From assembly GCA_018398765.1 (NCBI GenBank), contig JAHBMJ010000034.1:1-57500 (forward strand): 57,500 nt of DNA, written 5' to 3'. Of the stretch, positions 7,568-52,611 are shown in pieces; position 1 is the first letter of the stretch; each line of letters opens with the position of its first letter. Under the pieces are notes generated by a model. It was not told where the DNA came from. It did not search any database and was given only the letters and a program-made list of their open reading frames with translations. The translations under genes and the position numbers were made by a program. The DNA is from Chromera velia (Eukaryota; Sar; Chromeraceae).

Positions 7568-8835
7568 GCTGACCGGCTTACTGATTAGCTGACTGGCTGA
7601 CTGACTGGCTGACTTGCGGAATGACTGGCGCTGACTTACTGGTTGACTGGCAGGCTGACTGACTGGCTGACTTACTGACAGACTGACTAACTGACTGACT
7701 GACTGACTCACTGTCTGGCTCACTGACTCACTGACTGAGTGACTCATAACTCATAACTCACTGACTGACTAACTCACATCTGACTCACTGACTGGCTGAC
7801 TGACTGACTAACTGACACAACTCATGACTCACTGACTGACTCACTGACTGACCGGCTGAGACTGCCTGACTTGCGGAATGACTCGCGCGGGCTGACTGGC
7901 AGGCTGACTTACGCTGACTTACTGGTTGACTAGCAGGCTGACTGACTGGCTGACTTTAAGTTACTGACAGACTGACTGACTGACTGACTGACTAACTCAC
8001 TGTCTGGCTCACTGAGTCACTGACTGAGGGACTCATAACTCATGACTCACTGACTGACTGACTGACCCACTGACTGACCCACTGACTGACTGACTGACTG
8101 TCAGTGACTGACTGACTGACTGACTTACTGATTTACTGACTAACTGACTCTCTGACTCATTGACTGACTAACTCACTGACTGACTAACTGACTCATGACT
8201 GACTGACTGACTGACTGACTGACTGACTGACTGACTCACTGACTGACTGCGGCTGACTAACTGCCCGACTTGCAGAATGACTCGCGCAGGCTGAGTGGCT
8301 GGCTGACTTGCGCTGACTTACTGGTTGACTGGCAGGCTCACTGACAGGCTAACTTACTGACAGACTGACTGACTGACTAACTCACTGTCTGGCTGACTGA
8401 CTCGCTGACTGACTGACTGACTTATGACTCACTGACTGACTGACTGACTGACTCACCGACTGATTGGGTGAATCTGGCTGACTCACTGGCTTACTGACTG
8501 ACTCACTGACTGACTGACTGACTCATGACTGACTGACTGACTGACTCTCCGACAGACTGGCTGACTGACTGGCTCACTGACTGACTCACTAACTGACTGA
8601 CTGACTGACTCACTGACTCACTGACTCACTGGCTGACTGACTGGCTGACTGACTGGCTGACTTGCACTGACTTGCTGGTTGACTGCCAGTGGCTGCATGG
8701 CTGACTGGCAGACTGACTGGCTGGCTTACTAGCTGACAAGCTGACTGGCTGACTGATTGACTGGCTCAGCCTGGCTGTCAGTGAGTGATTGACGGAGGGG
8801 CTCACTGGATCTGACTGGCTGCATAACTGCCTCTG
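7568..8835. repeat. CTGA-based satellite with higher-order structure
   Basis: About 1.27 kb built almost wholly from CTGA/CTGG/CTCA tetramers. A longer block recurs about three times (starting near 7612, 7868 and 8269). It is recognised by CTTGCGGAATGACT or CTTGCAGAATGACT, followed by GCTGACTTACTGGTTGACTGG and a run ending at ACTCACTGTCTGGCT. Translated frames give SQSVSQ-type repeats that are artefacts of the array. Confidence 0.9.
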
Positions 8836-18659: not shown

Positions 18660-20233
18660 TCACACATTTTTGAACTTCACAGGGCCAGTTTGCCCAACCT
18701 CAGCCGGGTTAAAAACTTTAACAGCTTCTTCTTCTCCGCTGCGAGACAATGCAACATAAGATTGACCGTGAGAAAAGATTTCTGACATCAGACAGAGGCC
18801 CAGCCTTTCAAGAGTCTGCCCTTGAGATCGATTGATAGTAAGAGCAAACGCAGGCAAGATGGGAAACTGTCTTCGTGTGAATTTGAAAGGCTGAGTACCC
18901 ATCTGTTCTGCCTCTAAATTCAATCGCGGAATGAAGATCTCTTTTCCAGTCTGCGGACCGGTGATCACTCGGCAGTGCAGATACCGAGAGCCAACGTTCA
19001 AAAGAATCAAACGGGTTCCGTTTGCTATCCCTCTTGTTTTGTCAAGGTTTCGAATCAAAATCAAAGGCATGTTTTTCTTCAGACGCAGCTTATGGGGGGG
19101 GAAGCCAGAAGGTTGGAAGGTTGGAGCGTATTGAGAAACTCAGGAACTAAGAGGTGTCCCATCTCCGGATCAGTGGACATATCGACGCTCAAAAACTCAG
19201 TCTCCTGCCCAGGAAACATGTCAATCGCTGTTTTGTTTACCTCATTGACATCTTCGTTTCGGGGAGCCAGAATAGCTCTGCTTGCGATGGTTTCGGGTGG
19301 GATGTTCCCGGAGGAAATGTCACCGAAGATTTCCTTGATAAACCCGTCAGTGTCTGACGCTGTACTCCTGGTCGAAGGGGCAAGAGTGACAGTGTCCCCG
19401 TCTCTTCCCCTTCCAACCCTACGGAGTAGATCAGCCCATGCCTGCTGTCGTGCAGGGTCGCGTCCCTGAGCAATCAATCGCTGCACTCTCATGTTTTGAG
19501 TGAGCTGTCGCACCTGGATGGGGCGCCAATGCTCCCACTTCTTCATGGTGCTTGCTACGATTGTGGCTCTGGGTGCCTTCGGGATGACGGGCAAGCACTG
19601 CTGCCAGTCTCCCGAAAAAACGATCACTTTCCCCCCCCACTCGTCACCTCCACACACATCCTCTAACCATCTCTTCACGGCAGCTATAATGTACTTATGG
19701 GACATGGTGACCTCATCCCACACAATGAGTCTACACTGTCTGACGATCTGTGCAGCAGCTGAATTCTTCGAGGGGGCACAGACACTGTCTTTTTCAATCT
19801 TCAGAGGAACGCCAAAGGCCGCATGAGCGGTGGAGGCCAGCGGGAGGAGAGTTGCTGCTATGCCAGTCGACGCGACTGCAAGGGCTGGTGTTCCTTGCTG
19901 ACCGGAAGGGAGACGGTCTATCTCTACTCCCACAGAGGCAAATGAGAGGGACGTGTTGAAAGCACGCACGTTCTCAATGAGATGGGCGTGATCGGGGTGG
20001 CCGTGCTGTAGGCGGTTTTTGATGCTTGCCGGAGGGTCTGAAAATCGTTTTAACTGAACCCTCCCATGTGAGCAGCAAATAGAAAACTTGGCGGCTCCGT
20101 AATGGCTGCTTGTTGAGACCTCTTCCCCCTTCCAGACCTGAGCTCTGCATGTGGGGCATTCTTGCACTGGGCCTTCAAAGTCTGCTGAACCAGGAGCGAC
20201 TCTGCGCAATATATCATAGACGTGGGGGTTCAT
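18660..20233 (-). pseudogene. Helitron-type helicase remnant (internally deleted and frameshifted)
   Basis: Two minus-strand frames, 20233-19079 and 19070-18660, together form one Helitron protein. The N-terminus has a Cys-rich finger (CPTC..., then ICCSHGRVQL). Next comes the start of the Helitron-like N domain (HLIENVRAFNTSLSFAS). The text then jumps at about residue 116 (near 19885) straight into the PIF1-like helicase at TGIAATLL, AHAAFGVPL and LIVWDEVTM. The later motifs NGTRLIL and SYVALSR follow in the second frame. The replication-initiator nuclease region (HUH and Tyr motifs) and the helicase Walker A loop are absent, so the copy cannot be autonomous. The frame breaks in an 8-base C run on the minus strand (plus 19094-19101). 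It could be a pseudogene or, at the frameshift only, an assembly error. Confidence 0.85.
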
Positions 20234-20259
20234 GTACAGGCCGGCGGGGATGTAATTTC

Positions 20260-20732
20260 CTGGTGCAAAACCAGGGATTGTTGGGGAGTACCTGCTGTGT
20301 AACGCCCATCCTGCAGACAGACACAGAGACGGCGGAGACGGTGGTCAAATTTGTTCCAGGGTGTGCACATGTCTGTGCGTACTGAGAGGGAAAATAGAAG
20401 GTTGGCTGATCTTTCGTCGGGTTTCTGAGGAAGTTTCTGTTCCCATGAATTCTTGGTGGCGCAGGGGGTGCAATGTAGTTTGGCGGAAGCCGCGGCCTCA
20501 GTGGAGGCAGAGGAACGGGCAAAGGCGGTGGTGGCGGTGGTTGAGGAGGCGGCAGCGGTGCAGCAATTATTCCTGCTGCGGCTCCAGCGCTGGGAAGGAG
20601 TTGGGGAGGTGGATGTACAATCGGAGGCGGATATATCTGGTTAGCCGCCATTCCCGTGAACACACACAGATGCGATACCACACACAAGACACGTACAGCA
20701 CGAAGGAGACGGCGGTTATTCATACAGAACAA
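20260..20732 (-). pseudogene. Proline-rich N-terminal region, possibly of the Helitron gene
   Basis: An open frame directly upstream of the Helitron frame, on the same strand, encodes a hydrophobic start followed by a Pro-rich stretch (PPPQPPPPPPLPVPLPP and similar). Its end overlaps the Helitron start in another register. A consensus-like acceptor CACCAG lies between them, so an N-terminal exon joined by splicing is conceivable. It may instead be unrelated low-complexity sequence. Confidence 0.3.
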
Positions 20733-21450: not shown

Positions 21451-22209
21451 ATGCCGACAAAGTCGCAGGCAGCCCCTAGGGAAGGCAACCCGGCAACTTC
21501 GGTCCTTCCCTTCGCGGGTGAGTTGCAAAATGAGACCTGTCTGGACTCTGCGATCTACTTTTACACGCTTCGCATCGCCTCCAAGTTAGCTTGCACAGGG
21601 ACAGAGGGCAAGCACGAAGGGAGAATCTATGTAATTGGGTCTGTTGACGAAATCATGGGGCATGCTGATAGTCGGAAGGACGACGTTGCCATCCTGTTGG
21701 CGAAGCACGAGGCCACGAACTCCTTCGTCCTGAAGGAGGATGGATCAGCTAGCGAGGAGGGGGAAGCGTTCATCCGAAAACACCTCCTTCAGGACGGCGC
21801 ATTCGTAGTATCAGGGCAGAATCGCGGTCGCATCCAGGCTTGCACTGTAATGCTGAAAACCGCCGGCAATGCTCTCAGACAGGATGTACAGGGTGGTACA
21901 GGGCACAAAGTCGCCTTAAACTTCTCTCAGGATATGCGGAATTGCGTTATCATCAAGGCTTCCGAAAACTCCACGGGAAAAGTCCTCGTGTGTTTTCGGG
22001 GAACGAAGGACCATTACACGTATCCCGATTTGGGGATGGAGGTGAGGGTCCAGAATCAGACTCGTCCGCCGGCTCCCACCGAGACATATCTCGAGATCAA
22101 AGAAGAAAAAGTGACGAAGATCCTCATGCGGATGCCCCCAGTGTACAACTTGAATACAGGGGTGCAGCAGGAGCAGGTGGTGGAGGCCTTATCTGCATTG
22201 CAGAAGAAG
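21451..22209 (+). CDS. First exon of a multi-domain gene: diadenylate-cyclase-like (DisA_N-like) domain 1
   Basis: From the ATG at 21451 the exon encodes 253 codons and ends in phase 0 at a GTGAGG donor. Residues about 30-185 resemble the DAC (DisA_N) fold. A helix (LDSAIYFYTLRIASKLA) is followed by a GRIYVIGSVDEIM strand-turn, then DGAFVV (residues 115-120) and GRIQA. A glycine turn GGTGHKVA (148-155) follows, then NCVIIKASE..TGKVLV (164-180). In bacterial cyclases the DGA and RHR motifs bind metal and ATP. Here DGA is kept and RHR is replaced by GHK, the histidine aligning. Cyclase activity is therefore uncertain; a nucleotide-sensing role is an alternative. The exon is the start of a gene that probably runs to 30449. 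Confidence is for the coding call and fold resemblance, not activity. Confidence 0.65.
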
Positions 22210-22436
22210 GTGAGGAAGTGATCAGTTTCCGAGTGGCTATCCGATTTATGATCTGATTGATTCGATTGAGCAGAGTCAGGGAGAGGCACCACGTTCTCAT
22301 ACCGCAAGCGAGCAAATTTTGACTCATTCACTCGTTTTGTTTTTCTTCCCTGTTTGTGGCCTGTTTGTCACCTCCTTCTCACAGCGCGGCTGTCCAATCT
22401 GATTCTTGACCTCTCGACCGAAAAACATCCTTGCAG

Positions 22437-22691
22437 AAAAGGCTTTCGGTATCGGTTTTCGGGTCCGACTCGCTGCCTCGCCAATGGCGGGAAAAAGGCA
22501 GGCCGTCAAAGCTGGAAGAGAAGAGAGCAGCGAAAAGGATTCTGAGGAACCAGTCGGTAGAAGGACACGGATTTTCGGAAGACCAGGGCGAGAAGGAGAG
22601 CAGGGAGCAAGACAGGACAGAGCGACAGATTCTCGATCGCCAAAACGAAAAATCGGAGGGAGACGGCAGCAACCTCAGCGGGCATGAGCCG
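22437..22691 (+). CDS. Probable second exon: charged linker
   Basis: Phase-0 exon of 85 codons between a consensus acceptor (TTGCAG ending at 22436) and a GTCAGT donor at 22692, both matching the splice signals of the ABCC gene nearby. It encodes a Lys/Glu/Arg/Ser-rich, probably disordered segment without a domain. Phases agree with the preceding exon. It is judged by splice signals and frame only. Confidence 0.45.
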
Positions 22692-22952
22692 GTCAGTGGA
22701 GCATTTGAAGAGCATCGAGTCACTTGCTTGGCAAGATTGGATGGACTTCTCAGCCTAGCCGCACATGGTTAACCCGCCACGCATCTTCTGCTCAGTTCAT
22801 TTTGATGTTCGATTCCTTCCTGTCTTTTCATGCTCCAGATGCTCCTCATTATTCTCCTTGACTATCCAGATCTTCGCTGATCGCCGCAACTTCTTTGAGG
22901 AACTTCTTCTTCACCCTTCATTTATGTTGACCATGCGCATATCTTGCTGCAG

Positions 22953-23518
22953 GGGCCCGATCCTGCGGCTCCAAGTGGCAGGTATCGTGACTTTCCAGCT
23001 TTTGGCCAACTCGACGTACATCTGGTCAGCAGTCACCGTAAAAGCACGTGATGCAAAGACAGGGAAGGGCTCAATTGAGTGCACACTTAAGTGTTTGGCT
23101 TGCGTGTTTTGGGATGTGTGTATGGGTGGAACAGCTGCAGACAATACACTCTTTGCTCCAGAGCTACAAAATTAGCTTGAATTCAAAGCCGTCCTCCACG
23201 CAAAGCTTTTCATGTCCTCTTTGTATTCTTCTGCATGTCTGCAGCCTCAAAGTACGTCCTCAGGAGCACCGGGGAGAGGTCAGTAAGAGAGTGCTCGAAT
23301 GCCACTTGCTCACTCACTCAGAACCCTGTAGTGATGAGGTTGGAGAGTGCAGTGCTCTTGCGATACCAGCAAAGACAGATCTTCTTTATTGTGTGAGCAG
23401 GATATTTTGTGCATCCTCACATGAGCATCTCAATGTTTTGTCTTGCACGTGAAAGTCATGCAGTGACAGGGTGAATTCGGTTGAGAGTTTGAGACCGTCA
23501 GGCCACACGTGTGTCCTG

Positions 23519-23558
<40 letters not shown>

Positions 23559-23882
23559 CATGTGTGTGTGTGCATGTGTGTGTGTGTGTGTGTGTGTGTT
23601 TATCTCTTTGACTGGCTCCATTCTTCCTCTTCTCTTTTCTCTTTCTTTTTCTTCTCGTCCTCCTTTCTCTTCTTCTTCTTACCTCGAGTCTTCGCATTGG
23701 GAAGGTGTTTTTCCTGCACGTGCAATGGGCCTTTTTTCTCTTTTTTCTTTTCATCGTCTCTTTTGCTGCCGTCTATCCTGCTGTCGTGTGCCCGCAGGAA
23801 TCTGTGAGGAGTCGAAAGGTTTTGCGAACGAGAACGAATGCGTATTTGCTGCGCTACGTGATGATTTGGGCCGATGCGGAGA
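22953..23882 (+). CDS. Probable small linker exons
   Basis: Three short segments fit the local splice rules. 22953-23024 (24 codons, CTGCAG acceptor, GTCAGC donor) and 23245-23278 (34 nt, CTGCAG acceptor, GTCAGT donor) precede 23798 to about 23882 (CCCGCAG acceptor, GAG/GTGCCT donor). The last two join in frame (phase 1) to give a segment reading GICEESKGFANENECVFAALRDD. Between them an intron contains (TC)n and (TG)n microsatellites at 23520-23600. Function is not recognisable, and other exon choices are possible. Confidence 0.3.
23520..23600. repeat. (TC)n(TG)n microsatellite in a probable intron
   Basis: A TC run of about 28 bp is followed by TG/TGCATG repeats. The same composite recurs at 28473-28532 in the intron before the coiled-coil exon. 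Similar CA/GC/GA runs occur at 43352-43382 and 46506-46570 in ABCC introns. Confidence 0.85.
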
Positions 23883-24021
23883 GGTGCCTTTCTCTGATCA
23901 CAATTGGCACTTTGTGGAGAAAAGAGGGAGGGAGGACAATCCAGTAGAGACTTTTGAGGGGGTGGAAACCTACAGTCACATTTGAAAGTCCTTGAGCTGC
24001 GGTTGCTGGACCTCTTGGCAG

Positions 24022-24972
24022 AAGATTGAGGAAGCACACATGTGGGCGTTGAAGTATCACGACGTCAGGGACCCCCAGGCTCAGTCTCCAGGTCAGAGAG
24101 CCTTTGACCCTTTCGAGTGGATTTTCAACTTACGTGTAAAAGTTTTTGTCGTCTTCTCTGTCGTTCCACCGAAGTGTGCAGAGAATCCTGTCAAATTGGA
24201 GGTACTTAAAGTGCCTTCTGAACTTTGGACAGAAGAGTCGGCGTATGAAGAGCAGAACCACCCGCAGTCATCAAATTACAATGTAGAGGTGAGACGCTGG
24301 ACTTCTCAAACAACCAAAATGCTGTTGAGCGCCTGCCTTTGCTACTCAAAAAAAGTCCGGCCGGAAATGAGACAGAGGCACGGTCTGTCTTGTTTTTTCT
24401 GCATGGATCTCCGTCTCCCCCCTAGCAAGAAAAACGCCAAAACAGCATTCACCGTCTCCATCCGAGAGAGCGAAGGATCCACCTCCCCATCCAAGAGGCC
24501 TCACTCTCAGAGCCCCAATCAAGCACAGACAGGGAGCCTGAGTGGCATGAGTCAGCAACCATCAGGAGGCATTTCAGGAGGACAGTCGCTGTCCAGCTCC
24601 GCAGCCGGAGTGCACAGAGCTGACCACCATGTCAGTTCGAGCCTAGCGGGAGAAGAGGGAGAGAGTGCTGACTCTGTTGGTGACGGGCCATCGTCTCACA
24701 CTGAGGCAACGTCACTTGATCGACAGGACGGGAGGTGGGCAGAGGGGCCACGCACGAAGAAGGACTCTGACACAGTGTTCGGGGTACAGTCAGCAGTCAG
24801 CGAAAGAAAGGGAAATACGGCCACGGGGGAAGAGTCTAGCTCTAGCTCAGCCGAGCCCGATGTTGCTCAGCAGTGTTCCAAAGCCCCTTGCGAGGTGCAA
24901 TCTTTACTTTCAGGAACACTGCCCGACAGTGGAGACGTCGAGCCTGTTCGGCTCTGCGACCTTAATTGCTGA
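24022..24972 (+). CDS. Ser/Gln/Gly-rich linker region of the DAC-like gene
   Basis: A GGCAG acceptor at 24021 opens a frame starting KIEEAHMWALKYHD, a helical TPR-like string. A GTGAGA donor lies at 24292. A later part of the same frame (24427-24969) is a long polar, Ser/Gly/Gln-rich segment (for example GGISGGQSLSSSAAG) typical of disordered linkers. The order and borders of exons here are not settled. No catalytic motif is seen. Confidence 0.35.
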   Translation, partial: KIEEAHMWALKYHDVRDPQAQSPGQRAFDPFEWIFNLRVKVFVVFSVVPPKCAENPVKLEVLKVPSELWTEESAYEEQNHPQSSNYNVEVRRWTSQTTKMLLSACLCYSKKVRPEMRQRHGLSCFFCMDLRLPPSKKNAKTAFTVSIRESEGSTSPSKRPHSQSPNQAQTGSLSGMSQQPSGGISGGQSLSSSAAGVHRADHHVSSSLAGEEGESADSVGDGPSSHTEATSLDRQDGRWAEGPRTKKDSDTVFGVQSAVSERKGNTATGEESSSSSAEPDVAQQCSKAPCEVQSLLSGTLPDSGDVEPVRLCDLNC

Positions 24973-25019
24973 AATGATGGACCTTGGCCTCCGTGCTATT
25001 CAGGTAGACGGAGTACGTA

Positions 25020-25420
25020 GCGAGCCCATACAGAGAGAGCGAAACGATATACAAATTTGGGACCACCCTTGCAAGCGACTCTGGTGATGAGAATCAGCAG
25101 GATTGGCAGCGGATCTTTCAACGCATTCCTGCCGTATCACTTCTTGAAGATCCTGATATTGCGCACAGCAACCTGACGCAGGCAACTTTCGAGGATGTGA
25201 AACGATTTCTGCACCGCATTTTTGCTGAGCTGAAGGAATGTGCAGACCATCTAGACCTCGACCCAGACACAGAACAGGAAGGAGATCTGAGAGAAGAAGA
25301 GAGAAGCGACCATCAGTTCCCCGTCTTTTGCAAGTTGCAGTCGACAGATGGTCCCGACTTTGAAAGGGAAGACATCCTAAAAGCGCTAAGAGAGCTGCAT
25401 CTTTGGAAGGAGGAAAAGGT
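25020..25420 (+). CDS. Helical acidic module of the DAC-like gene
   Basis: An open frame reads DENQQDWQRIFQRIPAVSLL, then DVKRFLHRIFAELKECADHL, and after an acidic stretch FEREDILKALRELHLWKEEK. The start resembles the later module at 26457 (SEEDWQQFIDRYPAAALVFE), which suggests each DAC-like unit is preceded by a related helical module. The 5' border is uncertain (a stop lies close upstream in the same frame). A family could not be named. Confidence 0.4.
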
Positions 25421-26456
25421 TTTGGAGGGCACTTCAGGGGACAGGGGGGTGCAGGGGTGGCTTCATGAGGGGGTGATCCAATGTTCTCAAAGGAAAGAGG
25501 ATTCCCAAATCGGCTTCCACGCGGGCTTCTTTCATCTCAGCACGAATACTCTGCAGCGTCAGATGATTTCGAACTTTCCTTGTGCGCTCTTCTGGTTTGT
25601 TGTCGAAGGACCGGGGGGGGAACGGAGGGAGACGAAGGGGGGCAGGTGGCAGTCGAGGAGTTGGGGGGGGAAACCGGGAAGACATTTATGGTGGAAGAGT
25701 CCTTGGAAACAGTGACGGAGAAGGGGGGCAGGTTGAGAGCGCGGAGGGAAGAGGAGGAGAGATGTTGGCTAACTTGGCTTCCTACAGCCCTTCGCCAGGG
25801 CCTGTCTCTGTTGGGATAGTAACTGAGACAGCAACGAGAGAAACAAAAGAGAGAGGTCAGCACGCCAAACTTGCTCCATTCCGTTTCTGTGTGCAATTGT
25901 GCCAAGCGCTGCGAGAGGCTTCCTTTTCTGTTGTTTCGCTGCCATAATGGACGAAATTGTCACCACTGTTTTCAGCTGCCAAACATTTCAAAGGGACGCA
26001 AGGGAGGGGAATGCTCAGCATGACTTTGAGGGGTGGAAGTTTGGGGAAGGCGGAGGAGGGGTTTCATGAGAATGAACGAGAGGACGCACGAGCGGATCAG
26101 GAAGAAGGGGGTGCAGAGGGAAGGGTGGAGATGCAAATTGGGGAGGAGACGCGGAGCAAACACGGAAAAGGGCACGAGAAGGGAAAAAGCGTAGAAGAGA
26201 GAAAAAGAAGCCTTGTTAGTCTCACTTCCCCTGAGAGTTCTTGCTTTTGGGTAGACAGCGGCGGCAAAAACAAATCAAACGACTCAACAACATCAGTGTT
26301 TGATGTCTGTTTTAGTCCCTTTCAAGGTGGCAATGTAGGAAGATCAGCCTGTTGATTCTTCTTCTTGCTCCTGCTGCCCAAAAATCCTTTCATGTGTCTA
26401 TCGGTCGACCAAAAGTGTCTGAAACATACAGAATCTTTTGTTTGATGTATTTGCAG
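25421..26456. other. Mostly intronic or linker sequence within the DAC-like locus
   Basis: G-rich sequence with frames that change register. A polar frame from about 25975 to 26330 (acidic and Lys-rich) could be a linker exon behind a TTTTCAG acceptor. Nothing can be called with confidence. Confidence 0.35.
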
Positions 26457-26902
26457 ACACACAGGATAACGAGGACAACTTGATGAGCGAAGAAGATTGG
26501 CAGCAATTCATTGATCGCTATCCCGCTGCTGCTCTCGTATTTGAAGCAGACAGAGCATGGAAGAGAAGGCAGGCTCTGAAAAGGCAACTCGGAGTGAGAG
26601 AGCAAAAGACGAAGCTGAGGGAACCAGACACCACCAAAACCTCAAAGAAAGGAGGTCCTGAGTTCTCTCTTCCGCTCTCATCCCCTCAAAAAACACCCCA
26701 TGTGCTTCAGGGTGCAGAACTGAGAGAAGAGGACACGCGCGACTGTGACAAGGATTGCAAATCTGGTCTTGAGAGCTCCTGCAAAAGTGCTGCCCTCGGC
26801 AGATTAACAACGGCGGGGTCTGACCTTTCCTCACGATCCTGCAATAGCCTCTCAGTGTCCCCCAGACTCATCAATGAAGCCGTGTCTGCAGTAGGCTCCA
26901 GA
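26457..26902 (+). CDS. Probable exon: helical module plus polar linker before DAC-like domain 2
   Basis: Begins after a TTTGCAG acceptor (26451-26456) with TQDNEDNLMSEEDWQQFIDR, then a basic helix (AWKRRQALKRQ) and a Ser-rich polar tail. The frame meets TAA at 26903-26905, yet the very same frame then continues into DAC-like domain 2. A splice that removes the TAA (for example an AG at 26905-26906) or a real disruption are both possible. Confidence 0.4.
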
Positions 26903-26905
26903 TAA

Positions 26906-27429
26906 GAACGGCTGCTCCCCCTTTTGGAAGAAATCCCGCCCCAATGGCGTGCAACCGCCATTGAAGCCGTCTTCCTTGCGGAGGTATATTCAAGGGCGGG
27001 CATCAAAGGGCGTCAAGCAGGGACTTCTCTAGTTGTTTGCGATGCCGACGCTCTGCTCGCCAAGAGCAGATCCGAGAAGGATCAGAGCACAGAGCACAGA
27101 ATCACGCCTTATGGGTCAGTTCGAGAGGAGGGCATCATCAGACATCCGGCAAACATCAAGACAAAGCAAGGCATTGACGCACTCAGGCGTTGCATGAACT
27201 CAGACGGCGTACTGGTTGTCGACGGTGCGACGGGGGAGTTTCGTGCTTTTGGATTCGTTCTGAAGCACGAGGCTCAGGGTGGGGGATTATCAATTGGACG
27301 GGGGACGGGCTCAGCAGTAGCAGAACAGGTTCCAAAAAAGTCGCAAGTCTTCGAGATTCGAGTGTCCTGTGGCGGGGAAATCCTAATTTTTGCCGGTGGG
27401 GCTGAGCCTCTGGTTTTGGAGCCCCCCAA
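26906..27429 (+). CDS. Diadenylate-cyclase-like (DisA_N-like) domain 2
   Basis: Reads LLEEIPPQWRATAIEAVFLA, then the AGTSLVVCDADALLAKS strand, ITPYGSVREEGI, DGVLVVDGATGEFRAFGFVL (DGV at 27203), a GRGTGSAVAEQ turn (about 27298) and FEIRVSCGGEILIFAGG. The order and spacing match domain 3 closely and domain 1 and bacterial DAC domains more loosely. The metal-binding DGA is DGV and the RHR motif is replaced (GTGSA), so catalysis is unlikely. A GTAAGA donor follows ...EPPK at 27430; an alternative GTGGGG donor lies at about 27400. Internally duplicated relative to domain 3. Confidence 0.6.
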
Positions 27430-27509
27430 GTAAGAGAGCGACCCCCTCCAACAGTTTGACCCCACAACAAATCCCGAAAAGGTCCTGTCTCTGCCCGAGA
27501 GCGCTGCAG

Positions 27510-28450
27510 ACGCAAGGTGGCAAGAAATAACCAGACTGTATTCCTCTCTGAGCGGCGAAGTGCGGGAGATCAGAGAACAGCCTAGCGTCTCTGAACACCG
27601 TCCGCTCTTTTCCGCCCTAGTAGGGAAAGCCCATTTAGAGATGAAGGTAGGACTTCTTGACCAAGCCTACAAGAGCTATAGAATGGCGTCCTCTCTCCTT
27701 CCAACTTCACTCACTCATCCTTCTGGAGAGTCATCTGCGCGCTCTTCAGTGTTGGGTCAGACTCGTCTTTCGTCAAAATTTTGTGTTTCTCTGGAAGAGC
27801 TCTCGGTCTTTTTCCAGCTTCAGCGCGATGTGAGTAAAAAGAAGCCCGGCCACTTTTGGATTAGCGAAGCCCACAGTGGGATTCGCCTTCTGTTGGAGGA
27901 AATCCCAGAAGCATGGCGTGCAACTGCCTCGCGCGCGCTTGAGATTGCAGAAAAGCATGCAGACACCGGTATTGAGGACCCTGGAGGCCATGCAGGCACA
28001 TGCATTGTTGTTTGCAACGCCAATGCATTTCTTGCGAAGAGTGAAGACAACCAAGATGGGTCGAATCCAGAAGACATCATGACTCCTTTTGGAGGTGTGA
28101 AGGAACAAAACATTCGCAGACCCCCGAAAAGTATTTACACCACCGAGGGCGGCAGCAGGCTGAAAGAGCGGATGAATGATGACGGTGCGCTCATTATTGA
28201 CGGTTCGAGTGGAGAATTCTGTGCATTCGGGTTCCACTTGAAGTGCAGTGGGAGACCCTCTTCCATTGGGGGGGGACTCGGCACAGCATCCGCACAGGAA
28301 GTTGCACGCAAGGCATCTGCATTCGTCATCATGGTGTCGAAGGACGGGGCGGTGAAACTCTTCTGCGGGGAGGCAGAGCCGATTATGTGGAAAGAGGATG
28401 CGGCAACAGCGGGTGACCGAGGCTTCACCCCCGACCATCTGTTGGAGAGG
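27510..28450 (+). CDS. TPR-like segment and diadenylate-cyclase-like (DisA_N-like) domain 3
   Basis: Opens behind a CTGCAG acceptor (27509; another AAG acceptor at 27516 is possible) with ARWQEITRLYSSLSG, then a TPR-like helix pair (ALVGKAHLEM, LLDQAYKSYRMASSLLP). The DAC-like domain follows. It reads LLLEEIPEAWRATASRALEI, GTCIVVCNANAFLAKS, IMTPFGGVKEQNI, DGALIIDGSSGEFCAFGFHL (DGA at 28181-28189), GGGLGTASAQEVARKAS and FVIMVSKDGAVKLFCG. The INPF-G and DGA motifs fit bacterial DAC-like families; the RHR position reads ASA. It ends in phase 0 at a GTCCGT donor (28451), which joins in frame to the coiled coil at 28788. Confidence 0.65.
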
Positions 28451-28472
28451 GTCCGTCCTTGTTTTCACATTT

Positions 28473-28474
28473 GA

Positions 28475-28532
<58 letters not shown>
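28473..28532. repeat. (TC)n(TG)n microsatellite in an intron
   Basis: A pure TC run of about 28 bp followed by a TG run of about 30 bp, inside the intron that joins DAC-like domain 3 to the coiled coil. Confidence 0.85.
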
Positions 28533-28533
<1 letters not shown>

Positions 28534-28787
28534 ATTCGTGTGCATTCGTGCGTGCAATCGGATCAGTGGATGCTGCGGGGGAAGCGACAGAACATATTGA
28601 GAGAGCGTGCAGCCTCACCCATTTGCACGCAGCAGCTGCGTTCCTGATGCTGCGGTGTGTAGGCCATGCCTGATTGTGGGGAGGCTGGTATGGGCTGGTT
28701 ATCAAGCTACACCACAGTGAAGAAAGTCTGGCGGTGCTTATTCAGTAATAGTATCATTAATGAAGTATCCACTTGTATCTTGTGCAG

Positions 28788-30449
28788 CTGATTGCGCAGC
28801 TTCGGCGTACTGCAGCTTCAAGCACGGAAGAGAAGTCCGAGCGGCAGGAAGTGACAGAAGAGAAGCGGCAGAAGCTTCAGGAAGATCTGTCCAAAGCAGA
28901 ATCGCGCCTGCGTGTGTTCAAGTTGCAGGCAAAGAAAGCAGAGGTCGAATTGGATAAGTACCACGAGTGGAAGAAGCAATTTGCACTTAGAGGTGATAAA
29001 CTGCCGAACAAAATCCAGGCTGACGTGCTTCATCCGCTCCTTGTCCAAAATATCAAAGAAGAAGTCGAGAAGGCAGAGAAAGAGATTGCAGATATTCTAT
29101 CCCAGGTGTCCGCCCAAGGCATCACCCTCACTCGTGATGAGCCCGCAACAGGAGAACAGAGACTGGAAGAAGCCAAAGCGCAGCGAGAAGTCAAAGAGGC
29201 GGAGAAAGAGCTGGCAGCAGAGAAAAAAGAAACGCAGAAGCAGAAGGAGATGGTGGAGACCATTTCAGAAATGCCCGTCAGATTTCAGGATCGTCTGGCC
29301 GAGATGGAGTCCCGTCTCCGAGTATTCACATTGCGGGCAAGGGGGGCAGAGGTAGACTTGGAGAAGCTTCGTGAACTGAAGAAGTGCTCTGCTTCTACAG
29401 GAGACCCATTGCCGAGCGAAAAAGAGCCTCCTGAGTACAGGGCGTTTGTCGGAAAGAGAAACTTTGAGGAAGCAGCTGAGAGTGTCGAAAAAGATATTGC
29501 AGACTTTCTGTCAAAGGTCTCTGCCCAGGGCATCACCCTCATTCGTAACCGGCCCGCAACAGGAGCGCATAGAGAAGAAGAGCTGAGTGCGGATCGAGAT
29601 TTGAAAGGGAAGGAGAAAGAGTTGCACGCAGAGAAAGGAAAGAAACAGACGACGGCAGGGGCAACAGTAACAGAAGAGACGCGTGAAAAGCTTCAAGAAG
29701 ATTTGACTAAAGCGGAGTCGCATCTCCGAGTATGCAAGTGGAAGGCAAGGGCGGCAGAGGTGGAGTTGGAAAAGTACCGTGAGATGAAGAAACGGTTGGA
29801 ATTGACAGGTTCGTCAGTGCCAAACGAAAAACAGTGTGAAGTGGTCTACCCGCTGCTTGTCCAAAGGACAAAGGAAGAAGTCGACAAAGCCGCGAAAGAG
29901 GCCGCCAAGATCTTTCCCAAAGCTCTTGCCCAAGGCATACAGCTCACTTTCAACAGACCTGCAGCAGAAGCAGACAATGAAGAAGAAGTCAAAGCATATG
30001 AAAAGCTGAAAGAAAAGGAGAAAGAGTTAGAAGCAACGAAGAAGCAAAACCAGGAGCTTGAGGAGATGCTCCGATTCATCTCCAGTGCACAAAAAACCCT
30101 CCAAGCCACCTGCACGAAAGCCCAATCCGAGCTCAGAATTGCCAAACTCCGACAGGAAACGGCAGAGTTGGAGCTCCGAAATTTCGAAGAAGTGAAGGGA
30201 GGTCAACCGGAGGGCAAGTCGGAAGCCGAACATCAGCGTTTGAGAGACGTTGTGAAATTGGCATTGCAACAGGCTGAGGAGAAAGAGGCTGCATTCCATG
30301 AGGCAGTCCAAAGTGCTGTGAGCACTGGAATGGACCCAGACTTGAACTGTCCGGTAGATGGTGCACAAAAGGAAGCCGAAGAGGCAGCAGAGCGGGAATT
30401 GCACCTTTTGAAACAAGGGGGGACCTTGAAGGGGTCGGGAGTTCCCTGA
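28788..30449 (+). CDS. C-terminal coiled coil of the DAC-like gene, four diverged repeats
   Basis: After a TGTGCAG acceptor the frame is open for 553 codons to a TGA. It is rich in Glu, Lys, Ala, Gln and Leu with heptad character. A unit of about 140-150 residues recurs. Markers are KLQEDLSKAESRLRVFKLQA / RLAEMESRLRVFTLRA / KLQEDLTKAESHLRVCKWKA / CTKAQSELRIAKLRQ, each followed by a (V/L)EL(D/E)K-Y/L..(M/W)KK helix. Each unit then ends near VSAQGITLTRDEPATG, VSAQGITLIRNRPATG, ALAQGIQLTFNRPAAE or VSTGMDPDLNCPVDG. The array probably oligomerises the protein or holds partners; function is unknown. The intron before it (28451-28787) contains (TC)n(TG)n. Confidence 0.75.
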   Translation: MIAQLRRTAASSTEEKSERQEVTEEKRQKLQEDLSKAESRLRVFKLQAKKAEVELDKYHEWKKQFALRGDKLPNKIQADVLHPLLVQNIKEEVEKAEKEIADILSQVSAQGITLTRDEPATGEQRLEEAKAQREVKEAEKELAAEKKETQKQKEMVETISEMPVRFQDRLAEMESRLRVFTLRARGAEVDLEKLRELKKCSASTGDPLPSEKEPPEYRAFVGKRNFEEAAESVEKDIADFLSKVSAQGITLIRNRPATGAHREEELSADRDLKGKEKELHAEKGKKQTTAGATVTEETREKLQEDLTKAESHLRVCKWKARAAEVELEKYREMKKRLELTGSSVPNEKQCEVVYPLLVQRTKEEVDKAAKEAAKIFPKALAQGIQLTFNRPAAEADNEEEVKAYEKLKEKEKELEATKKQNQELEEMLRFISSAQKTLQATCTKAQSELRIAKLRQETAELELRNFEEVKGGQPEGKSEAEHQRLRDVVKLALQQAEEKEAAFHEAVQSAVSTGMDPDLNCPVDGAQKEAEEAAERELHLLKQGGTLKGSGVP

Positions 30450-32066
30450 GAGCCTTCTTCCTGAGATTTCCTCGAAATAGAATGCCAGAGCACGTGACGC
30501 TCTGTCAGTCTCAGAAAGGAACGTGGAGGCCGGCGTTGAGAGCCCCGAAGGCCGTGCAGGCACGCGAGATCGAAGACGGTGAGGCCCAAGCGGGGAATGA
30601 TTTTTTCTTTGCAGAGCCGTGCATTTAGGGCAGTTGCAAAGCTGGATCCGGGGAGTCTCAAGCTCTAGAGCAATGTAACAGGCCAATCGAGGCCCGAGCC
30701 CTTCATTCTCACCTCAGGAATTCGGGGTTCGCGCAAGACCCAGCAGGCAAGTGAGTCCCTTCTCAGCTCTAAGCTCCACAACACAAAAATCTGGCTGGGG
30801 GCCTCTTTTCGAGAGGGCTTACAAAGAGAATCAAACGAGGTGTCCGCGGGTATGTAAGGACATCATGGAAGCAAGAGCACCAATTAAGGAAGGAGGAGAA
30901 CAGATTGCGAACAGCACCGAGCTGTGTAAGTGGTTGGAGGAAAGCGATGAATGAATTTTGGGGGTTGATGACCAGAAGGACCCTGAGATCCTCTTGGAGT
31001 TCACGCCAAAAACTCACAAAGACACTGTGATTAGCACCAGCCGGAAGGAGTCCATTTTCGCTTAATTTCCCCCCTCCGTAAATGATGAAGCTGGAGAGTT
31101 TGGAGCTTTTCAAGTCTGCTAGCGAGTCTCCAACGCTCAGATGCTTCTGCAGACGCTAGGCAAAAAGCCGCACAGTCGTGCTGATTTCGAAGCCCCCACC
31201 AATCCCCTTGAATGCCAACCCCTCGGCCTGTAAATGCCTCCGACTTTTGCTTGTTTGGCTTGGCGTGTAACATGTGAGAGAGCCGGGTGAAACTGTTTAG
31301 GAAACTGTATTACATGCAGGACATATGAGTGGTGAAGGCGGGGATACACTCAAGTGAACGAGTTCAAGTTGTTTAATAGTCATTCTAGCAGTCAGTTCAC
31401 ATCATTGACGTTGATTATAGCTAACTCAGTTGCAGTAATATTTTTTATCAGACAAAGCCATATGTCCTAATAATACAGTCCTATAATATTACTCTTATTA
31501 ACTCTTTGAAACACATACTACACACTAATATTAAATTCCAGAATATCTATTTGAATTGAATTTGAATTGAATTGAGCGGAATTGAGGCGGTTAAATCTAT
31601 ACGTACAGGTTATGCATGCTTAGCTAACTACTGTTTCCAACTAGATTTAAACTAAGATTTTTAAATCACTTAAGACTCATCTGACTCAATTTTATATTAA
31701 TTATATATTATATTTTTTATTATATCTTATCGTCATAATCAACATGATACGCCATCGCTATCGGCCTATTTAATCAGAACCTAGGCTCCTTATATAAGAA
31801 TATTATAAAAATCGAGAAGCAATGTTATAAAAGTCAACTAGGAATCCAATAGAAATTAGCGATAAATCCTTCGAACTTGAATTAAATTTCACTGCGGCAT
31901 CGAAGCGTCATAGAAATCTAATTATAGAAATGTTCTAAAAATTATAAAATTACTTAATAATTCGTTTTAGATTTAATAAATTATCTTAAATTGATTTAAC
32001 TATGACATCAACTCTAGCGTTAACTTAAATTACTTTAAAATACTAATTTAAAGCTTAATGACTTAT
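30450..32066. other. Gene-poor, AT-rich stretch
   Basis: A short frame at about 30793-30953 (LFERAYKENQTRCPRVCKDI and on) continues after a TGA in the same frame as a protein-like string to about 31062. This may be a decayed exon. From 31350 the sequence is very AT-rich with AATTGAATTGAATTGA-like repeats near 31553-31585. No gene is supported. Confidence 0.45.
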
Positions 32067-35832: not shown

Positions 35833-48703
<12,871 letters not shown>

Positions 48704-49584
48704 CGTCTTGATCTCTCTCAGAAGGCAGTTCGAAGGATCTGAAGATGTGAAGTCGCAAATGCTGAAGCTCTCAAACGACAAGTCTGTGCACCTACACACG
48801 TGGACCTGCTCCTGACTTCTTCAGTTCCGAGAAGCGCGAAATTGTGATGGTCACGTCAGATGGTGAAGTGCAGGAAGAGGGTGAAAGTTGCGCGTTCATC
48901 TTCCCAGATCTTCCCAGCCGTCTCGTCAAATCCCGTCTTGCGGAAGGACGCGCTGTGTCAGCTAGAAAGGCGCATGCGGCCGCGGGTCAAGCGGGAATAT
49001 TGCAAACTCCGTGCGACCGTCGGAATCGCGCTCATTTGTGGTCCCATCTTTCTGTAAGAGCCCCACCTGGCAGCTGGTATATATATTGCCGGGGGCTTCA
49101 TGGATGCGCCAAACTGTGTGTGGTTGAGAGTGGGACCGACCCTGGTTCAATTAGAAGATGATGGAAGATGGGGAATATTGCGGAATGCTGTGCAGGATCG
49201 TGCAGGTCAACTGGTTGATTCAGAAGCAGGAGGATATGGCGATTAGACCTTTGTGTTGCGTATAGTGAAGCTGTAGACGATTGACTTATGTGTTTTCCAA
49301 GTGTTGTTCATCTCGTCTCCTCCCGTCTCTATATTCTTCTGTCCCTTTGTGCGACCTGTAGTCGACTCGGGGTTGTGAGTCCGTTGGGCCAGAAGGATGC
49401 GATCCTCCGCAGAACGGAGGTGCTCTCTTCGTTCAGCATTGCTTCTTTTCTGGTTCCCTTTCTTGTCCTCCGCTTTTTCCTTTTTCACGTACCCTTTCGG
49501 AACCAAATCGAGAAGGTCGAGGGACCCCTCCAGTCTTCATCTCTTGCTCGACCGGCCCGCTGCACTTGGACTCCTCGCGCATGA
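48704..49584. promoter_or_regulatory. Divergent intergenic region between ABCC and PPR genes
   Basis: About 880 bp separate the start of the minus-strand transporter from the start of the plus-strand PPR gene, so both promoters should lie here. No TATA box or other defined element can be pointed to. Short frames on either strand have no domains. Confidence 0.4.
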
Positions 49585-52500
49585 ATGCGAAAGGTTAGTA
49601 GCTCGGGCTGCGTACTTGAAATCTGCCCAGAGAGGCTCAAGATATTATACCCCACTTTCCGTTTGTTTCTCATTTTCGTCACTCGTTCTATCCGCAGGCG
49701 GACGGAGCAGAGGGGCAACGCGCCGAGGAGTCGAAAGCGAAATGCATGGACGAAGGGCCAGGGCCCCCCTAAAACGGACGGCCGCCCCACTGTGAAGACA
49801 GCTGAAGAACTCTCACAGATATATAACGTTTCTATGCCCCGGTCCACGGAACGGGGAAGGCCGGAGTCTTTGAGGGGGGGGGGAAGCGAGTATCAGAGAC
49901 GGGATCTAGCGGGGCAGGTGAGCACGCGGGCGAGCAACAGAACAGGAAACTACTTTAAGAGCCTCAGACAGATCACACCAGATTCCCCCCCCCGTGGCAT
50001 ACCACCAGAGCAACGGAAAAAGCCCATCCCCTCCCCCCGTGCGAAATATCCCAAGCGCAGGGAATTGAAGGGGATGGAGAAACTAAAACTGGAACTTCCC
50101 AAAGAGGCACAGCAACTAGATAGTTTTCCTTCTGCCAGTGTCTCGTCTCTCGTGTCAGTGCTGGAGACTGCCGCGGCGTCGGGCAATCTCACGGCAGCTG
50201 CGCATTACATTTGGGAGGAGGGAAAAGGGGGGTTTGTGGGGAGCAGGGCAAAGTGGCGCAAGGCGAAAGTGCAGATGAGATCCGATATTGACGCTATCGC
50301 TATGCTGGCGCCTGGAAGGAAGGGTGCGCAGCTTGCATTGACCCTCTGGAGGGTCCTTTGCTGTGATGCTGCCGCGGAAGTCGGTCTGCGTCCCGCTGAG
50401 TCTGTTGCAGACGGCGCGATTCGATCGTGTATCAACGATCCGGCAGATCCTCTATGGAAGGAGGGGTTGGAGGTCTGGAGAGAGGCGCGGGGTGAGGGGC
50501 TTAGACTTGGGGTAAGCACCTGCGTTGCCTTACTAAAGGCGTTGAAGAATGCAAAGGGCGGTGGACGAGTGTCAGAAGCAGAGGCGGTTTTTGAGGAGAT
50601 GCGAAATATGTCCATGATCCGGGGGCCAGGGGGGGGGGCTGCGTACACTATCATGATTCGTATGTACCGTACAGTTGGTGATTGTGAGAAAGCGGAGGGA
50701 GCGTACCGACAGATGATAGAGGATGGGGTCCCTCCAAATGCGGCAGCTTTTAATATGCTGTTGAGGAGTTTTGTAGAGGGGGGGCGGTTACAGGATGTGT
50801 TTCGAATATTCAAGGAGATGAGAAAAATCGGTGTGCAGATCAAAGAAAGCCATTATTATGCTGTGAAAAGAGCAGCAGAGATGTCCAGTCGCCCGGGTAT
50901 GTCGAGTGTCCTGTTTGGTCTTTGGAAGGAGATGAGGTCAGCAAACATCGTTCCACGACGCACTTGGTATACGAGTGTGATTAACTCGCTATCCAAGGCG
51001 GAGGGTCCGTCTCGGCATCAGGAAGCGATGTTTGTTTTCAGAGACATGATTGCGAACAAGATCGAGCCGAATGTGGTCACGTACAACTGTCTGATCCCTT
51101 CGGTTGTTGCGGGACTTCGGTCACGTGACAGGTCGGGATGGCAGCACGCCCAGCTTCTGCTGTCCGACATGCAGAGTCGGGGAATTCCTCCTTCTTCCCG
51201 GACGTTTTCCGTTCTGTTCAATGTGCTTTACGCTGCAGATAAGCAGGTAAAAGGGAGGCAGGATAAGGCGTATCAGATATACGAGCAGGCGAAGAAGAAC
51301 GCCACCGTCATAGAGACCTGGGGCACCATTACTTTGAACTCTCTGCTAGTCTGTATGAAAGGATCTCGGGGGGTTCCCAGTCGTTTCGACGTCGCGACGG
51401 AAGTCTACGAGCTCATGAAAAACGGCTCCGAGATCCAGAAACCGAACTGTGTGACGTACAGCCTGATGATGAAACTCGCTGCACAGTCAGGAAACGAGAC
51501 GGATGCAGCGCAAGTGTTGTCTTTCTTTGAAGAGATGAAGAAGGATGGTATCACCCCTGACATGAACTCATACATCAATTTGATGTCTACACAGGTTGGG
51601 ACCGGCGTGTTGAAATTGTTGAAAGAGATGAAGGAGACGGGGGTGCAACCGAGTTTGAAAGTGTACAACACTGCCATTTGGGCCCTTTCGGATGGTCAAG
51701 TTCAATCGAGTGACGCCGATGCTGCTGTAACCATCATGCGAATGATCAAGCACGATGGGATGCACCCGTCTACTTTGACCTACAATGGCATGATCAAAAT
51801 GTTCTTGAAGGCCAAACGCCCCGATGAAGCGTGGTCGTTGTTTGAGGAGATGAGAGAGGAGGGGAGGGTACAGATGACGGCCGAAACGTTCAAATTTGCC
51901 ACCGCGGCATTTATAAGGAAATCCGATGCCAATAGCTCCTCCTGGAGGGGTGCACTGCAGCTTCTTGAATCCTATCGAGCTGCAGAGATGGCTGTTGACC
52001 CGATACAGAGGCAGACGAGCACGTATATTTACGACAGGGTTTTGGAGGCAATGTCGAAAGGGTTAAATGAGTTCGGGGTTGTCCCCTGGGAGAGGGCAAT
52101 GGCTTTGTTTAACGAGATGGAATCTTCTGGTATTCGTGTGTCTCCCGTCTCCTTTTCCTTTGTGACATACGCAGTCGCCAGAGCTCCGGGGGGAAGTCAA
52201 TGGCGTCGTGCTGTGTCGTTCTTGAATGAAATGTCTCGACGAAAATTCCAGCCTTTCGATTTTGTGGTGGATGGGTTGATGGCTTCTGCTTTGGAAGCGG
52301 GTGGGGATGCTTTGTTTGAGGTAGTTGATGTTTTGGAGAAAGTAGAAAAGTTGGGGATGCGGGCGTCTGAGAAGAAGGACGGGAAGATGAGTGTATGCTT
52401 GGACCCTGTGCTGAGTTCGAAACTTCTTGTACAGCTTTGTGGGAAGGGAGGAGGGGAAGAGACGCAGTCAAGCGCAGGTGCCAGTCACCGTACGATCGCG

Positions 52501-52611
52501 CAGCGTTTTTTGGTGTTGCTAGAGAAATGGATAGTGCCTCTGACGACAGAGGGGAGCAGAGCGGTTTCTCGATTTGGACTTGTGAGTCAGCAGAAGGGGT
52601 CCGATGCATAG
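49585..52611 (+). CDS. Pentatricopeptide-repeat (PPR) protein
   Basis: Continuous frame of 1008 residues with no stop. From about residue 300 to 900 there are roughly 13-15 PPR units of about 35-40 residues. Examples are PNAAAFNMLLRSFVEGGRLQ, PNVVTYNCLIPSVV, KPNCVTYSLMMKLAAQSGNE, PDMNSYINLMS, PSLKVYNTAIWALSD and PSTLTYNGMIKMFLKAKRPD, with repeat ends such as EEMKKDGIT and LFEEMREEGRV. PPR proteins bind organelle RNA in a sequence-guided way and act in its processing or translation. The basic, Ser/Arg-rich N-terminus is compatible with an organelle transit peptide. No DYW or SMR domain is visible at the C-terminus. The first 37 codons may include an intron (AAAG/GTTAGT at 49594, CCGCAG at 49696); phases from the obvious ATGs do not fit, so the intronless reading is preferred. 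Confidence 0.88.
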   Translation: MRKVSSSGCVLEICPERLKILYPTFRLFLIFVTRSIRRRTEQRGNAPRSRKRNAWTKGQGPPKTDGRPTVKTAEELSQIYNVSMPRSTERGRPESLRGGGSEYQRRDLAGQVSTRASNRTGNYFKSLRQITPDSPPRGIPPEQRKKPIPSPRAKYPKRRELKGMEKLKLELPKEAQQLDSFPSASVSSLVSVLETAAASGNLTAAAHYIWEEGKGGFVGSRAKWRKAKVQMRSDIDAIAMLAPGRKGAQLALTLWRVLCCDAAAEVGLRPAESVADGAIRSCINDPADPLWKEGLEVWREARGEGLRLGVSTCVALLKALKNAKGGGRVSEAEAVFEEMRNMSMIRGPGGGAAYTIMIRMYRTVGDCEKAEGAYRQMIEDGVPPNAAAFNMLLRSFVEGGRLQDVFRIFKEMRKIGVQIKESHYYAVKRAAEMSSRPGMSSVLFGLWKEMRSANIVPRRTWYTSVINSLSKAEGPSRHQEAMFVFRDMIANKIEPNVVTYNCLIPSVVAGLRSRDRSGWQHAQLLLSDMQSRGIPPSSRTFSVLFNVLYAADKQVKGRQDKAYQIYEQAKKNATVIETWGTITLNSLLVCMKGSRGVPSRFDVATEVYELMKNGSEIQKPNCVTYSLMMKLAAQSGNETDAAQVLSFFEEMKKDGITPDMNSYINLMSTQVGTGVLKLLKEMKETGVQPSLKVYNTAIWALSDGQVQSSDADAAVTIMRMIKHDGMHPSTLTYNGMIKMFLKAKRPDEAWSLFEEMREEGRVQMTAETFKFATAAFIRKSDANSSSWRGALQLLESYRAAEMAVDPIQRQTSTYIYDRVLEAMSKGLNEFGVVPWERAMALFNEMESSGIRVSPVSFSFVTYAVARAPGGSQWRRAVSFLNEMSRRKFQPFDFVVDGLMASALEAGGDALFEVVDVLEKVEKLGMRASEKKDGKMSVCLDPVLSSKLLVQLCGKGGGEETQSSAGASHRTIAQRFLVLLEKWIVPLTTEGSRAVSRFGLVSQQKGSDA

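Follow-up and report, generated by a model that had tools for sequence, protein, structure and literature searches.

Diadenylate cyclase (DAC) domains (PF02457), as found in DisA, CdaA/DacA, CdaS and CdaM, are the makers of cyclic di-AMP (c-di-AMP) in bacteria and archaea. NB-ARC/NLR proteins, in turn, usually carry TIR, CC, CARD or RPW8 domains as N-terminal modules, and in animals the networks built on CARD and related death folds include Apaf-1, caspase-9 and RIPK2. NB-ARC, caspase and RRM domains are not known as partners of the three DAC classes. In bacterial conflict systems, DisA_N-like domains such as DACNV, DACNG and their kin have reportedly been described by Burroughs and Aravind as predicted sensors; nothing relevant was retrieved under these names in the literature searched. 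Here we analyse a stretch of 57,500 nucleotides from Chromera velia (contig JAHBMJ010000034.1, positions 1 to 57,500 of the forward strand), hereafter called the window, in which three related DAC-like units lie on the + strand (Table 1), as had been proposed in a preliminary description of this DNA. As judged from sequence, the units belong to a family in which NB-ARC (NLR/Apaf-1-like) ATPases, a caspase-like protein and an RRM protein carry the DAC-like domain as their N-terminal module. The explanation that we favour, with a probability of roughly 0.55, is that the units have diverged within the DAC fold family and have probably lost catalysis, and that they would serve an NLR-like family as a pseudo-cyclase module, either adaptor or sensor.

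Homology to DAC domains is most evident for unit 1, which we call type A. It matches the Pfam DAC model (cut-off 27 bits) with 29.6 bits (E 5.7e-7), and with 31 bits in the genome search, and its nearest NCBIfam model is that of CdaA (TIGR00159; E 3.8e-4), where its 19.8 bits stay far below the cut-off of 188.8. Units 2 and 3, of type B, are 49% identical to each other; unit 3 stays below the Pfam cut-off, with 18.2 bits (E 0.0019) for its 346-residue open reading frame (ORF) and E 4.8e-4 for the domain alone, and unit 2 has no Pfam DAC match. DAC is the only Pfam family matched by the DAC-like parts. A profile built solely from six DACs of bacteria or phages was searched against 2112 ORFs of 60 amino acids or more, taken from the window and from 21 loci fetched as holders of family members. 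Just six ORFs were returned at E≤1, all of them DAC-like candidates: C508 (75.2 bits), unit 1 (21.5), C1207 (16.6), C2260 (15.6), C2089 (12.0) and C2930 (9.5), paralogues being named here after their contigs. Units 2 and 3 were not among them, and the high score of C508 is partly a matter of choice, as the six DACs had been found with C508 as the query. When the same profile was applied to 20 family domains and to 500 composition-keeping shuffles per domain, no shuffle scored as high as the real sequence in the case of unit 1, unit 3, C495, C1207, C2930, C2089 and C508. Moreover, a profile of 19 family members retrieved 15 PDB sequences at E≤1; the seven best are diadenylate cyclases (best E 2e-5), with an eighth at E 0.87. 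In profile-profile alignments, hhalign gave 94.5% for type A against the bacterial DAC profile and 97.3% over 147 columns for type B against type A, with 0.1% for the NB-ARC control profiles in both comparisons.

The family extends far beyond the window, since DAC-like units were found on at least 20 contigs of the genome, the window contig included. A genome search with unit 3 returned 15 contigs at E≤1e-3, to which the search with unit 1 added C1207, C2930 and C2089, and the Pfam model C508 and C2260. Unit 1 is 61% identical to C1207, and unit 3 is 48-62% identical to most type B paralogues. C1748 reached only E 0.457 in the genome search with unit 3 and 8.7e-6 in a small local search. Some copies (C1771, C70 and the first C3707 unit) are split or carry stops. 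Two of these genes stand apart. C508 (L001:1333-2280) is a separate, better conserved DAC-like gene, with 61.5 bits for Pfam DAC and diadenylate cyclases from E 1.3e-9 in the PDB, and may be the member of this fold that has changed least in the genome. C2260 (L003:710-2124) is seemingly split by an intron, Pfam covering profile positions 77-117 only; by eye it reads GTS at the place of DGA and GHRHS at that of RHR. The occurrence of DAC (DisA_N) homology in a eukaryote, as the preliminary description had supposed, is borne out, and the family across the genome, like an NB-ARC remnant in the window, had escaped it; the assignment it had made by eye holds directly for unit 1 and through family links for units 2 and 3, and only the match of unit 1 exceeds the Pfam cut-off.

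Outside the window, the DAC-like domain is repeatedly fused to NB-ARC. Specifically, 9 of the 10 DAC-like ORFs tested exceed the Pfam NB-ARC cut-off of 23.5 bits: C1207 (46.3 bits), C2930 (41.7), C637 (40.4), C247 (40.2), C2089 (32.8), C371 (30.8), C1771 (26.9), C357 (25.8) and C70 (23.7); the tenth, C2219, is a partial exon and reaches only 11.5 bits. The C1771 and C70 ORFs lack the first half of the DAC-like domain. With Pfam DAC, the type A ORFs reach 19.2 to 23.7 bits in their DAC-like part, and no match at E≤0.1 was obtained with this model in the type B NB-ARC ORFs C357, C247, C637 and C1771. Walker A is kept in five NB-ARC ORFs, whose P-loops read GGVGKS, GGIGKT or GGMGKT. Searching the genome with NB-ARC returned seven places, all seven inside DAC-like ORFs, in a search that was not exhaustive, as it missed C357 and C70. 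The NCBIfam model FxSxx_TPR matches all five of the NB-ARC ORFs given (E 1.8e-29 to 2.2e-26 or 3.6e-26), below its 300-bit cut-off, and these matches fall on the ATPase part of the ORFs; in the 906-residue C1771 ORF no Pfam TPR match was found at E≤0.1. In addition, a single 700-residue ORF of C3747 combines a DAC-like domain with Peptidase_C14 (33.1 bits, cut-off 21.4), and C1748 combines one with an RRM domain at the cut-off (20.9 versus 20.7 bits). The DAC-like domain of C495 (L033:4573-7017) lies in an 815-residue ORF with a kinase-like appearance to the eye (GRGRFG, HGDLNPSN); a kinase fusion, suggested by this glycine loop and by HGDLNPSN, was set aside as unproven, as no Pfam match was obtained. 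By eye, the regions C-terminal to the DAC-like domain in L032:2637-3641 and L037:5688-6851 resemble each other; they match no Pfam family.

Several observations weigh against this picture. In the shuffle test the real score was reached by 1 of 500 shuffles for C509 and by 93 of 500 for unit 2, which is consequently tied to DAC only through the family, and 11 other domains of the 20 were equalled by 3-138 of 500. Aligned directly to the bacterial DAC profile, type B gave an hhalign value of 39.0%, falling to 30.8% with a narrower type B set and with C508 included on the DAC side. Pfam DAC is found at E≤1 in just 7 of the 19 members of the family profile. Against the PDB, two profiles made without type A gave no significant DAC (0.32 and second to a lectin for one, none for the other), the type A profile alone reached a DAC at E 0.36 only, and unit 1 as a single query had no DAC match. 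A single-sequence structure model of unit 3 was poor, with a predicted local distance difference test score (pLDDT) of 40.4. As for the fusions, C3595 carries an NB-ARC around which 3 kb of sequence are readable and show no DAC-like match, a further 2 kb consisting of N. Finally, the pairwise ratios of non-synonymous to synonymous substitution rates (dN/dS), at 0.13-0.37 in 11 of 12 pairs with the twelfth not estimable, count in favour of the explanation preferred here but are rough, since dS exceeds 1 in most pairs.

The weak or absent direct matches of type B could be taken to mean that its DAC likeness is a coincidence of short motifs, and that only type A, C508 and C2260 are DAC-like. We regard this as very unlikely: besides the hhalign relation between the two types and the Pfam match of unit 3 alone, tblastn relates unit 1 to C495 with E 4.5e-8 in a local search and 1.7e-4 genome-wide. 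On the whole, we consider the tie of type A to DAC domains good and that of type B mainly indirect, resting mainly on the link to type A; units 2 and 3 are of the same family as unit 1, with a weaker and mostly indirect tie to DAC.

As described in a review (PMC7288161), GALI contacts the adenine in DACs, the Asp of DGA the ribose, and GxRHRxA and (V/I)SEE the phosphates; two DAC domains stand face to face around the ligand, and both DGA and RHR are important for catalysis in all three DAC classes. The domains of C. velia follow the same order as these cyclases, with a GALI-like strand, a DGA strand, a GxRHRxA-like turn and a (V/I)SEE-like strand. Motifs were tabulated for 20 domains, leaving out C752, C70, C1771, the first C3707 unit and C2260, which are partial, split or spliced. 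DGA is present in 12 of the 20, DGV in 2 and another reading in 6, whereas RHR is kept in none. In the window, units 1 and 3 have DGA and unit 2 has DGV, and at the RHR site units 1, 2 and 3 read GTGHK, GTGSA and GLGTA, respectively. Of the 19 members of the family profile, 18 retain the serine of (V/I)SEE; the glutamates are mostly replaced, often by x-D. Because DGA is found in 12 of 20 domains and RHR in none, the family members are probably not cyclases. In other words, the motifs favour a loss of catalysis, which we infer, with part of the nucleotide pocket being kept.

An active cyclase was dismissed as the leading reading on account of the complete loss of RHR. A narrower version, in which an altered catalytic loop would still allow certain members to produce c-di-AMP or a different cyclic dinucleotide, would draw on C508, with its high Pfam score and its LHDGV and RH, and on the low dN/dS values. 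However, C508 reads RHL at the RHR site, and both DGA and RHR matter for catalysis in the three known classes according to the same review (PMC7288161), so that we hold this version to be very improbable.

In the reading that we prefer, the adenine/ribose half of the old pocket (the G-x-x-h-V-V strand, DGA and the serine of (V/I)SEE) would have been kept, and the loss of the phosphate-holding RHR would have entailed that of c-di-AMP synthesis. The face-to-face pairing of DAC domains might have been reused, under the control of an adenine nucleotide or of NB-ARC oligomerisation. Such pairing would bring the partner domains together and couple NB-ARC oligomers to, for example, a caspase-like protein. 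The main ground for this mechanism is that the NB-ARC and caspase ORFs have one N-terminal module in common. Within the window, unit 1 would represent a DAC-like protein on its own. The residue of tandem family genes whose NB-ARC was lost or broken would comprise units 2 and 3 together with the TPR-like stretch and the coiled coil.

The main rival of the pairing mechanism is a pure input sensor: the DAC-like domain would perceive c-di-AMP or another adenine nucleotide, of bacterial or own origin, and switch NB-ARC or caspase with no pairing. Most units keep DGA and the serine, both of which belong to the lining of the adenine nucleotide pocket in bacterial DACs (PMC7288161), and with no unit among the 20 having both DGA and RHR, a synthesis of c-di-AMP by the organism itself is not evident. 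However, the phosphate-holding RHR is lost throughout, and DGA/DGV is also lost in 6 of the 20 units. A search for the STING family gave no match to its ligand-binding domain, and the control was silent too, so that this result carries little weight. Taken together, we consider the pure sensor rather doubtful. The preliminary description had guessed at a sensor or scaffold derived from a cyclase, a suggestion with which the loss of RHR agrees.

A more specific form of the preferred reading is a convergent apoptosome, in which DAC-like pseudo-cyclase domains would play the role that CARD and death folds play in animals. An NB-ARC oligomer, triggered by a nucleotide or a microbe, would present its DAC-like domains, and these would recruit the DAC-like domains of a caspase-like protease and of stand-alone proteins such as unit 1 through face-to-face pairing inherited from c-di-AMP synthesis. 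The likeness to the animal networks consists in one N-terminal module common to an NB-ARC ATPase and a caspase-like protein; the folds are unrelated, and the parallel with Apaf-1 and caspase-9 is an analogy. We hold this proposal to be tentative and rather unlikely. With PADLOC, only one weak caspase match and one weak mad8 match were obtained. The family hints at an unrecognised signalling or self-defence circuit.

At the window locus itself, the preliminary description had read one gene with three DAC domains, a TPR-like part and a repeat coiled coil. A single intact gene of this kind finds no support and was rejected on account of the stops around unit 2, the separate ORF of unit 1 and the broken NB-ARC. 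No intact NB-ARC was found at the locus, and the remnant alone is present, with one frameshift, four in-frame stops and an altered Walker A stretch; part of it (30693-30845) was also matched at E 6.4e-5 in a separate NB-ARC search. Unit 1 has no NB-ARC continuation, unlike its type A paralogues. The TPR-like stretch resembles the C-terminal tail that follows NB-ARC in the C1771 ORF (42% over 131 amino acids, E 5.6e-17 with tblastn), and Pfam TPR_1 is matched weakly (E 0.28). The coiled coil is there as described, with AQGI at residues 117, 254 and 389 marking its internal repeat, but it has no second match anywhere in the genome at E≤1e-6 and hence is not a family feature. By eye, most paralogues have a Met a few residues upstream of the domain, none was seen at units 2 and 3, and no convincing splice solution joins the parts of the window.

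Table 1. Features of the DAC-like locus in the C. velia window
Feature	Positions	Strand	Remarks
Unit 1 (type A DAC-like)	21451..22221	+	256-residue ORF; own Met at 21451, stop at 22219-22221
Unit 1, Pfam DAC match	21589-22002	+	Pfam
Unit 1, domain extent	~21547-22047	+	
In-frame stop TAA	26903..26905	+	one codon upstream of the unit 2 ORF; read from sequence
Unit 2 (type B DAC-like)	26912..27430	+	open frame 26906-27430; no own start codon seen
In-frame stop TAA	27431..27433	+	directly 3' of unit 2; read from sequence
TPR-like helical stretch	27461..27832	+	tblastn relation to the C-terminal tail of the C1771 NB-ARC ORF
Unit 3 (type B DAC-like)	27887..28405	+	346-residue ORF 27434-28474, which also holds the TPR-like stretch
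Repeat coiled coil	28764..30449	+	561-residue open frame; period ~136 residues
Decayed NB-ARC remnant	30687..31284	+	tblastn with the C1771, C637 and C357 ORFs

These features look more like a tandem array that has been rearranged and has partly decayed, next to a unit 1 that stands alone. The simplest account would be two tandem family genes whose NB-ARC parts were lost or broken. One may go further and regard the locus as a pseudogene cluster with no present function, the family being functional elsewhere. The stops that flank unit 2, the broken NB-ARC remnant and the start codons not seen by eye at units 2 and 3 all speak for such a cluster. On the other side stand the long open frames of 256, 346 and 561 amino acids and the dN/dS of 0.15-0.37 for units 1 and 3 versus their paralogues, pairwise values that do not isolate the window branch. 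We treat the pseudogene cluster as a possibility of some weight, still an unlikely one.

Set beside known systems, the family is homologous in its DAC-like domain to the bacterial and archaeal cyclases, from which it differs by the lost RHR. It resembles the NB-ARC/NLR/Apaf-1-type STAND ATPases by its NB-ARC and its GGVGKS-type P-loop, and differs from them in having a DAC-like domain as N-terminal module. The idea embodied in the DisA_N-like sensors of bacterial conflict systems, a DAC-derived domain without the catalytic set, is similar, the likeness here being one of description. Brown algal NB-ARC-TPR proteins exist, as stated in PMC11378527, and are likened to the present ones by description. 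The NB-ARC kind itself is known, and an NB-ARC family with a DAC-like front domain appears to be new. No literature linking a diadenylate cyclase to NB-ARC was found in a collection that lacks most subscription journals, and a search of the same collection on DAC domains and c-di-AMP in protists, algae or gene transfer returned nothing on such a link. As regards origin, pattern matches in GTDB genomes (67 for type B, 50 for type A) and in viral contigs (42 with the type B alignment) included none confirmed as relatives, and plasmids searched with unit 1 gave no match; as such scans find close relatives, an old transfer may still have occurred. In C. velia, a eukaryote, a DAC domain seems to have been turned into a module that recurs in fusions with NB-ARC ATPases and in one with a caspase-like protein. 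If this domain pairs or binds nucleotides, it would be a front end of NLR-like proteins that descends from bacterial second-messenger signalling, and the origin of innate-immune adaptors would become testable beyond animals and plants.

Some minor observations concern the genome and the rest of the window. The genome yielded 58 light-harvesting matches, which point to a photosynthetic organism, and no match to PsaA/PsaB or to the RuBisCO large chain in the genome search. The plastid contigs are probably missing from the assembly, and the absence of RuBisCO would be odd if it were nuclear here. A long imperfect CTGA repeat of ~294 copies occupies window positions 7589-8763, and Pif1/Helitron-like helicase remnants can be discerned by eye at 18660-20344 on the - strand. 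Further downstream, ABC-transporter-like pieces lie at 43600-48800 on the - strand, followed on the + strand by a long PPR-like ORF at 49585-52608, both likewise recognized by eye.

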